Positions 6,599-8,602 of a stretch of 10,676 nucleotides of DNA are shown in pieces. Position numbers and translations under genes: made by a program. The notes under the pieces were generated by a model that ran no database searches, was not told where the DNA came from, and saw nothing but the letters and a program-made list of their open reading frames with translations. How positions within the stretch are numbered: position 1 is the first letter of the stretch; each line of letters begins with the position of its first letter. The stretch is from Clostridiales bacterium (GTDB taxonomy: Bacteria > Bacillota > Clostridia > Saccharofermentanales > Saccharofermentanaceae): positions 1 to 10,676 of the forward strand of contig JAGAFH010000154.1 in NCBI GenBank assembly GCA_017612755.1, read 5' to 3'.

Positions 6599-7429
6599 AT
6601 GAACGATTCAAAACCTGTAAAGCAACCTGTACTCAAGTTTTTCTTCGGCGGCTGGCTCCTTACCGGCGGTATCATGATGATCATCATGATGCTTCCCCAT
6701 TTTATCTATGCAAATAGGTCATATATTGAGCCTGCCAGGTCCATTATCGTGGCTGTTGTCGGTATAGTGTTCATCCTTATCGGTTTGCGGCTTACGTTTG
6801 GCGTGTATAAGAAGAGGATCAAGAACGGCATCCCCGTTAAGAAAGCTCTCTTCATCATTCCGGCTGTTTTTCTGGCCATTTCCCTGATAACCATTCTGGC
6901 TTCTTTCGGCACCGTCAAGAACAGCTACAAGCCTGTGGGCCTTAAAGAAGCCCAGTCGAAGGATATGGATAAGCTTCTCGATGTGGAAGATCTGGTCTCT
7001 GATATCTCCCTGGATGTGGTCGGAGATGAACCCTCCTCCACGGAGACCTGGGTCGCTGTCAGGATCCCGGGATATGAGGAAGGCGGAGACTACCCTTCTG
7101 CTGTCGCCTGGTCAGACGCCCAGTGGTTCGCTATCGGAAACTGGATGGATGCTAAGCCTGTCAAAAAAGATATTGACGATCTGGACGTGATCGTATTGTG
7201 CAGATATGAGATCACTTCAGCCAGCTATTCCAATACTACCGGTGGCGGGGGCGGCGGAACCGGTACATCCGAGATGGTATACCTTTATTTCGTCAACGCC
7301 GAGACAAATGAAGTCTACAGGACTGAAAGGATGGGGCATGAGCTGCCCTCGTCGGTAACGAGCGTTCCCCACTATGAAGTAACTGCCGACGACCTGGCAA
7401 GCGGCATAACAAATTTCCTGTCAAAATAA
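6599..7429 (+). CDS. Unrecognised three-helix membrane protein with extracytoplasmic domain
   Basis: 276 residues; I do not recognise the family. Three hydrophobic helices lie at about 12-37, 47-70 and 83-104. The basic loop KKRIKNGIPVKK between helices 2 and 3 places that loop inside, giving N-terminus in and the C-terminal 170 residues outside. The outer part is acidic and mixed alpha/beta (WVAVRIPGYE, DVIVLCRYEI, MVYLYFVNAETNEVYRTERM) with a flexible six-glycine run at 215-220 followed by TGT. The start is firm: GGGAGGG lies 6 nt upstream of the ATG. It appears to be a single-gene unit between the carrier terminator and the palindrome-rich spacer. A role at the cell surface is all that can be inferred. 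Confidence 0.8.
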   Translation: MNDSKPVKQPVLKFFFGGWLLTGGIMMIIMMLPHFIYANRSYIEPARSIIVAVVGIVFILIGLRLTFGVYKKRIKNGIPVKKALFIIPAVFLAISLITILASFGTVKNSYKPVGLKEAQSKDMDKLLDVEDLVSDISLDVVGDEPSSTETWVAVRIPGYEEGGDYPSAVAWSDAQWFAIGNWMDAKPVKKDIDDLDVIVLCRYEITSASYSNTTGGGGGGTGTSEMVYLYFVNAETNEVYRTERMGHELPSSVTSVPHYEVTADDLASGITNFLSK

Positions 7430-7450
7430 GTCCGGCCCGGAAATACCCTT

Positions 7451-7488
7451 GTCCGACTAAAACACGGATTTCTTCAAAATAGTCGGAC
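7451..7488. repeat. 38-bp palindromic repeat, unit 1
   Basis: Arms GTCCGACTA (7451-7459) and TAGTCGGAC (7480-7488) are perfect reverse complements around a 20-bp AT-rich spacer. One more pair outward (T/A) extends the stem to 10 bp. The spacer is unlike those of units 2 and 3. Confidence 0.8.
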
Positions 7489-7556
7489 AGATTTCCGGAA
7501 AAACAGGCCGTTTTTGCTTGATTTCAAGCTTCAAAGCCTCGGGAAGCGCTCTTTTC

Positions 7557-7594
7557 GTCCGACTATTTTGGCGTTTTTAGCGTTTTAGTCGGAC
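7557..7594. repeat. 38-bp palindromic repeat, unit 2
   Basis: The same 9-bp arms at 7557-7565 and 7586-7594, again with exactly 20 bp between. The spacer contains GGCGTTTTT at the same offset as in unit 3, so units 2 and 3 are close relatives. Confidence 0.8.
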
Positions 7595-7630
7595 AAGAAG
7601 AAGGGAAAAACGGAAAATAAGCGTAAATCT

Positions 7631-7668
7631 GTCCGACTAAAATGGCGTTTTTGCCGATTTAGTCGGTC
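7631..7668. repeat. 38-bp palindromic repeat, unit 3, overlapping a stop codon
   Basis: Left arm GTCCGACTA (7631-7639), right arm TAGTCGGTC (7660-7668) with one changed base, 20 bp apart. Further pairing (CTG/CAG outside, AA/TT and GGC/GCC inside) gives the longest imperfect hairpin of the three. Its right arm covers two bases of the TGA stop of the minus-strand gene. Confidence 0.8.
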
Positions 7669-8452
7669 AGAGCAGAAATTTCCTTAGGATCTTCTCGGCA
7701 ACCCGGGTGTCGAGAGGCCTGTAGGCGGTCTCGTGAAGGAGGATCAGCCTGTCACCGGGATAGATGCCGGACTTCTCATATTGCTCAAGACGGTAGACAG
7801 CGCTGTTGACGTAGGCCATATCATCCATCTTGCCCAGGTGCTCTATATAGATTTCTTTTCTGAGCCTGACGTTGAGGGCGGTGAAGTCCGGATGGATCTT
7901 TGTGCCGTTCAGCAGGAGAGGGTGCTCGTATTTGTAGGGGATCCCCAGCTCGTTCAGTTTGTCGGCGATGATCTTCTCTGACTTGGATCTGACGTGTTCG
8001 CCTCTGTTGCTGAAGATCTGGGGTGCCCCCGGATCTACGCCCTTTGTCTCTGTTCCCTGGGAGTACCACCACTTTATGTACTGTTCGTCTGTCTTTCTGA
8101 TGGGGGTGATGATATCCTGCCTGTCAGGAGAGAAAGTATCGTAGACGGATTCTATGCTCGAAGAAGACAACAGCCTCCTGAGATATTCTCTTTCTCTGAG
8201 GGCGGCCTTGAGGGCCTTTTCGTCATATTGTCTCTGGATTATCAGCCGGGCCGCAGACGTATCTTCAGATCTCAAGTAGATGCCGTTTTTTGGGGTGTCT
8301 TTGTTTATCAGATAGTATTCGGGTTTGCCGCGGTGAATGCTGATGCGGATGCGGCCGTCGGGGGCAGGGGAAGACAGCCTCTCCTGAAGAAGGGAGACTG
8401 CATTATCCAGGAGTTTTATCCGGTTCTGTAAGATAGATCTGTAGTCGTCCAT
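7667..8452 (-). CDS. PD-(D/E)XK nuclease-like protein of unknown function
   Basis: 261 residues from the preferred ATG at 8452. The N-terminal half is helical and charged, with coiled-coil-like stretches (1-27, 72-96) and a basic strand pair (RIRISIHRGKPEYYL). The C-terminal half carries a PD-(D/E)XK-like core: RGEHVRSKSEKIIADKL (Glu159), YEHPLLLNG, HPDFTALN (Asp189), and IYIEHLGKMDD (Glu204). The lysine expected two residues after that Glu is Leu; Lys208 might substitute. I recognise this arrangement (SKSE, PDF, EHLG) from a widespread family of clostridial proteins annotated as hypothetical. It could be a DNA-acting enzyme, but activity is unproven. The frame stays open to 8593, but the extra 47 residues look non-coding-like and a TATAAT lies 6 nt before ATG 8452 with no SD, implying a leaderless message. 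It ends inside palindrome unit 3. Confidence 0.78.
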   Translation of the reverse strand: MDDYRSILQNRIKLLDNAVSLLQERLSSPAPDGRIRISIHRGKPEYYLINKDTPKNGIYLRSEDTSAARLIIQRQYDEKALKAALREREYLRRLLSSSSIESVYDTFSPDRQDIITPIRKTDEQYIKWWYSQGTETKGVDPGAPQIFSNRGEHVRSKSEKIIADKLNELGIPYKYEHPLLLNGTKIHPDFTALNVRLRKEIYIEHLGKMDDMAYVNSAVYRLEQYEKSGIYPGDRLILLHETAYRPLDTRVAEKILRKFLL

Positions 8453-8568: not shown

Positions 8569-8602
8569 CATTTTTTGCCCCAAGTAAACACAAACGGGAA
8601 TT

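Follow-up and report, generated by a model that had tools for sequence, protein, structure and literature searches.

Repetitive extragenic palindromes (REPs) have been tied in print to HUH/Y1 transposases, as far as the available text of the papers concerned goes (PMC3116915, PMC3733652, PMC8266576), with the CGTC class of REPs described there as apparently lacking a dedicated transposase (PMC3733652) and with a conserved tetranucleotide 5' of the palindrome, most often GTAG, known as the REP tag (PMC8266576). Among nucleases, the homing endonuclease I-Bth0305I of the EDxHD group is stated, in the available part of a review, to dimerise on nearly 60 bp (PMC3943268). Here we analysed a stretch of 10,676 nucleotides, hereafter the window (contig JAGAFH010000154.1 of a Clostridiales bacterium, Saccharofermentanaceae), in which the gene for a PD-(D/E)XK-type nuclease is bordered at its 3' end by an array of three palindromes. 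Palindrome arrays that lie beside such nuclease genes in Clostridia and share private motifs look like an undescribed partnership between DNA and nuclease; the open-access literature yielded no report of a nuclease-palindrome array pairing, the subscription literature not having been searched. The features of the window are as follows.

7450..7669, no strand assigned: three-unit palindromic array of 220 bp, unit starts 106 and 74 bp apart
7451..7488, no strand assigned: palindromic unit 1, both arms exact
7557..7594, no strand assigned: palindromic unit 2, both arms exact
7631..7668, no strand assigned: palindromic unit 3, right arm with one mismatch, outer bases overlapping the TGA stop of the minus-strand gene
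7667..8452, minus strand: PD-(D/E)XK-type nuclease gene, 261 aa from the ATG at 8452
8273..8368, minus strand: codons of residues 29-60, modelled as a beta-sheet at the tip of a helical hairpin and proposed, from the model and comparisons, as the arm reader

An earlier note on this DNA had described three palindromic units of 38 bp in one convergent spacer, and all three are present, between the end of a plus-strand gene at 7429 and the TGA stop of the nuclease gene at 7667-7669. Each unit has arms GTCCGACTA around an N20 centre; the six arms had been reported as exact pairs, which holds for five of them, the last arm of unit 3 being TAGTCGGTC, a single mismatch away from the GTCCGACTA pattern. 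Units 2 and 3 carry GGCGTTTTT at identical offset, as the note had said. With up to three mismatches allowed, the 38-bp pattern matches three times in the window versus none in 200 dinucleotide shuffles. Simple terminators had been set aside on the ground that T-runs are absent; T5 tracts do occur in the loops and spacer of the array, none of them as a tail after a stem. No Rfam model matched the window at gathering score.

The start of the nuclease gene was placed by alignment, the open frame itself extending to a TTG at 8593. In its predicted fold the protein matches I-Bth0305I, TnsA, Bax1 and Vsr, Foldseek alone giving no match for the model at E 0.001 or better; its C-terminal domain matches the PADLOC profiles PDC-S68 and HEAT_CxxC_PDDEXK, and E159 and D189 are kept in 74 of 74 family proteins. 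By sequence and model, the product is a PD-(D/E)XK-type (Vsr / EDxHD / TnsA-like) nuclease of an uncharacterised family, with DNA cleavage as its predicted activity. The family comprises 1769 homologues at E 0.001 or better, occurs in 84 of 85 genus genomes, usually as several copies, and was found in 28 of 291 genomes surveyed across the class, seven of the 28 from the genus itself. The nearest relative (L049, G009:C196) has its copy of the gene at the same locus; the frame is interrupted by a stop codon, and the contig breaks off 36 bp beyond the gene, at the place expected for the array.

Arrays accompany this gene family well beyond the window. We sampled 110 loci from the list of genus homologues (30 loci from the search output itself plus 80 more entries, skipping places already sampled and contig ends), and a strict scan, which demands at least two units with common arms no more than 600 bp from the gene, found an array at the gene border in 73 of them, 65 on the 5' side and eight on the 3' side, with arm sequences that vary from gene to gene. 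None of 675 shuffled flanks contained an array under the same scan, a set that takes in three extra loci picked for having arrays, outside the 110. Twelve random 6-kb stretches from the genus gave two matches, one AT-rich, the other a genuine orphan array (G054) with arms, TTCTCTAAA, identical to those of a gene-linked array (L205) in the same genome; with this control cut into 116 pieces, the gene-array link has a Fisher p of 1.7e-13. Outside the genus, 16 of 21 loci gave a tblastn match, the other five being dropped. A looser scan, which fires in two of 75 shuffles, placed an array somewhere within 11 of these 16 loci, two of the 11 being AT-rich pairs. At two loci from other Clostridia families (L218 and L221), same-arm arrays flank the nuclease gene on both sides.

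The arms are private to a genome. In the parent genome (G000; 1.83 Mb in 240 contigs, 70% complete), where the earlier note had proposed a search for further copies, these do exist: the unit pattern at up to three mismatches matched at 12 places, one of them chance-like and the other 11 grouped in four clusters, namely the window array and three others (C21, C214 and C233). Unit starts lie 106 and 74 bp apart in the window, C21 and C214, and 105 and 74 bp apart in C233, which is reversed; the window and C21 arrays are 75% identical across 149 bp. In C233 the middle unit has both arms altered together (TACAGACTA / TAGTCTGTA), and a degenerate unit comes after. A caution is in order: taken by itself, the 9-mer GTCCGACTA shows no excess in G000 (22 places versus 27 for the reversed control), but 18 of the 22 fall in palindromic units. 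Three tRNA genes stand immediately before the C214 array (L006:1105-1364), and they were the only Rfam matches at ten array loci, outside the array.

Of the conservation in relatives that had been expected, the layout stood and the letters did not. Among 148 genomes (147 relatives and the own genome) convincing matches to the window arms occur in the own genome only, GTCCGACTA-type arms giving just two chance-like matches, of two mismatches each, in the other 147, while a covariance model built from 13 aligned units matches in at least 31 of the 85 genus genomes (own included), frequently at exact 74-bp steps. We retrieved and read 60 loci among the matches listed for this model; their arms include TACCGACTA, TACCTACTA, TACCCACTA, GACGGACTA and GACGTACTA, and some arrays are mosaics of blocks. 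In five such mosaics (L109, L111, L117, L134 and L149, from G054, G026 and G045) TACCGACTA, TACCCACTA or TACCTACTA blocks abut at about 40 bp. Arms differ at 0.96 of nine bases within a genome versus 2.03 between genomes, which none of 5000 label shuffles reaches (57 loci, namely 53 of the 60 and four from the own genome; the other seven had no array, another motif or were the sole locus of their genome). One intergenic place holds an orphan array in seven genomes (L112, L133, L145, L147, L152, L156 and L128), with arms that differ among some of them.

Arrays are dispersed within genomes. We chose three arm motifs from long gene-linked arrays and searched each in its own and seven other genomes: the G015 motif has 31 exact units in nine clusters and none in the other seven genomes, the G018 motif 15 in five clusters plus one unit in G053, and the G074 motif 18 in seven clusters plus two units in G076, upstream of that genome's own family gene (chance expectation below 0.001 for each motif; reversed controls, zero). 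Four G015 arrays are 89-96% identical to one another over 407-457 bp, and the gene-linked array of that genome is 92-94% identical to these four over 312-320 bp. In L244, L248, L249 and L250, all from G015, a second palindromic family, around TCACGCAGAAC and TAGCGTGA, borders the TTATCCCAA arrays and has been copied along with them. Between genomes, one array stands between conserved flanks in G022 and G058 and is missing in G062.

Unit spacings cluster at whole turns of DNA, at about 52, 63, 74 and 104 bp. Of 381 same-orientation arm spacings in 76 gene-linked arrays, 345 belong to the classes 50-54, 60-65, 72-76 and 102-106 bp, near 5, 6, 7 and 10 turns, with a best period of 10.5-10.65 bp; tested on 47 per-array medians, this phasing is matched by none of 5000 jittered sets. 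The 190 centre distances from 53 orphan loci have their peaks at 74, 63 and 32. Changed arm positions are mostly uncompensated (196), with 25 compensated changes versus 17.6 +/- 3.0 in shuffles (24/2000), and G.T and A.C mismatches (49 versus 34, p 0.12) show no clear difference. Since arm changes are mostly uncompensated and the units are helically phased, the data favour arms that are half-sites in double-stranded DNA over arms that form hairpins, and the phasing supports the protein-binding sites that the earlier note had listed as an alternative.

Arm turnover is coupled to residues 29-60 of the protein, with the catalytic domain conserved. In the structure model these residues form a small sheet that caps a helical hairpin. 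When the 74 proteins associated with an array were collapsed at 70% identity to 66, the likeness of their arms was correlated with that of residues 29-60 (r 0.119, 18/2000) and of residues 41-60, one of 25 windows (r 0.118, 1/2000), and uncorrelated with that of residues 128-261 (r 0.006). At orthologous loci whose flanks are conserved and whose arms are unlike (L069, L182, L187 and L202; L060 and L185; L058 and L064), residues 29-60 are 28-38% identical, a divergence roughly as great as that of paralogues (the mean of all pairs being 29%), and the catalytic domains are 64-72% identical. Pairs with related arms reach 69% (L199 and L201) and 48% (L065 and L176) in residues 29-60.

It is reasonable to suppose, with about an even chance of being right, that the arrays are half-sites for a dedicated nuclease encoded by the adjacent gene, spread in the manner of REPINs without a REP-associated tyrosine transposase (RAYT), and that residues 29-60 read the half-site. 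Each array would then present inverted half-sites of about 9-11 bp, which, because the units are whole turns apart, would lie on one face of the DNA; paired half-sites would be bound by protein dimers, and the I-Bth0305I dimer, on the nearly 60 bp given in the part of the review available, fits 38-bp units at 52-74-bp periods. The C-terminal domain would nick or cut DNA, and a cut at or near an array might be repaired from another copy, a process that would keep arms alike in each genome, lengthen and mix arrays, and copy them into intergenic sites, often at 3' ends, while many nuclease genes would remain at fixed loci as their specificity turns over. Put more broadly, at a chance we set a little short of even, this would be a new class of two-part Clostridia element, a multi-copy and mostly chromosomal nuclease family whose genes each have a fast-evolving half-site of their own, set out in helically phased palindrome arrays that the gene spreads through its genome.

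Several observations weigh against this view. Thirty-seven of the 110 loci have no array in the strict scan, and a relaxed scan adds at most 11, some of which rest on near-palindromic words counted twice. The recognition correlation is weak, its protein set re-uses 44 proteins from the exploratory analysis, and L056 and L057 are 65% identical in residues 29-60 with arms only partly alike. The slight pair compensation and the strong single-strand folding leave room for hairpins. The array missing from G062 could be a deletion, 19 other bases standing at the empty site, and neither a target-site duplication nor a clean insertion junction was seen.

The same body of data bears on other explanations. 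The arrays could be operators, the protein acting as an autorepressor or regulator of its own gene and a small regulon with its nuclease domain secondary, and the 5' position of 65 of the 73 gene-linked arrays, the apparent independence of the half-sites and a phasing suited to cooperative binding all speak for this. We nevertheless consider it rather unlikely, given that orphan arrays avoid promoters: the 69 loci classed for position (of 71), in which genes were open frames only, comprise 36 codirectional, 24 convergent and 4 divergent loci, 4 at a contig edge and 1 apparently in an open frame, four being gene-linked and one divergent call (L007) looking wrong, against 14 codirectional, 4 convergent and 7 divergent in a small sample of control gaps of at least 30 bp (convergent versus divergent, p 0.004). 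Moreover, 23 of 33 codirectional arrays counted (three of the 36 were left out) lie closer to the upstream stop (p 0.035), arrays that are nearly the same at unrelated loci look copied, and the catalytic residues are fully kept. A defence or addiction role, in which the nuclease is a restriction-like weapon and the arrays mark self or serve to titrate or restrain the enzyme, would accommodate the likeness of the C-terminal domain to PADLOC defence candidates, the many paralogues of different specificity and the fast turnover of the reading part; it is unlikely, however, with a PADLOC match limited to one domain and orphan arrays at many neutral-looking 3' ends.

Quite improbable, in our judgement, is that the units are RNA elements, hairpins at mRNA 3' ends that serve stability or weak termination and are homogenised by recombination, with the nuclease as a bystander. 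Their 3'-end positions, the folding of the window array, far better than that of shuffles (z -7.5 and -8.4), and the compensated arms in C233 suit this idea, but the predominance of uncompensated changes, the mismatch counts that do not clearly differ, the helical phasing, the private link to the gene and the lack of an Rfam match at the arrays examined do not. The earlier note had proposed REP elements of a RAYT (Y1/HUH) transposase. Its dispersed palindrome family survives in the four arrays of G000, in a mostly intergenic location with few copies in divergent spacers, and in the spread within genomes. Although the units are palindromic, dispersed and inverted and the own genome has one Y1 transposase, this gene, the only one found in the 70%-complete G000, is on another contig, has no palindromic unit in its 3.3-kb locus and is flanked by a different repeat, so that a RAYT link is not supported; with the fixed GTAG tag absent at the units and array families tracking PD-(D/E)XK genes, we regard this explanation as very improbable indeed. 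That Y1 gene, RAYT-like and on C137 of G000 (L078:1289-1358, 1465-2214, 2495-2599), has its own 35-nt inverted repeats on either side, unrelated to GTCCGACTA.

Compared with clustered regularly interspaced short palindromic repeat (CRISPR) arrays, some arrays here have similar unit and spacer sizes (38 and 36 bp), but their loops vary while the arms are kept, spacers recur between copies and inverted half-sites alternate. PDC-S68 and HEAT_CxxC_PDDEXK share the C-terminal nuclease domain by sequence, whereas the PDC-S68 profiles span about 1200 residues and the protein here has about 260, together with an N-terminus and arrays of its own; Vsr and the TnsA of Tn7 differ in the N-terminal part. 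Unlike EDxHD homing endonucleases such as I-Bth0305I, as presented in the available part of the review (PMC3943268), the gene is not an intron or phage gene and its presumed target array stays beside it, multiplied; a homing gene would interrupt or home into its own target site, and the array here adjoins the gene, with no insertion junction seen. Closest is the REPIN-RAYT system, or REPtron, as described in the accessible portions of the literature (PMC3116915, PMC3733652, PMC8266576), which shares inverted extragenic palindromes private to a linked nuclease gene, their dispersal within the genome and a mostly vertically inherited gene. Here, however, the enzyme is of the PD-(D/E)XK type instead of HUH/Y1, the arrays are long and follow the helical repeat of DNA, each of several paralogues in a genome has arms of its own, no GTAG is common to the 5' side of the 13 aligned units, and phasing and uncompensated arms argue for duplex DNA where REPIN-RAYT recognition involves folded single strands. 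The nuclease-array system thus resembles REPIN-RAYT in its working but fails two of its defining features, the enzyme and the tag. Another nuclease family tied gene by gene to private arrays makes the spread and upkeep of non-RAYT palindromes testable, and with 74 proteins that have an array there are dozens of naturally occurring combinations of a short DNA-reading segment and the site presumed for it; if the proposal is right, an unrelated double-strand nuclease would here underlie a system of the REPIN kind, in which a small beta-sheet tip evolves new DNA specificities at fixed loci.
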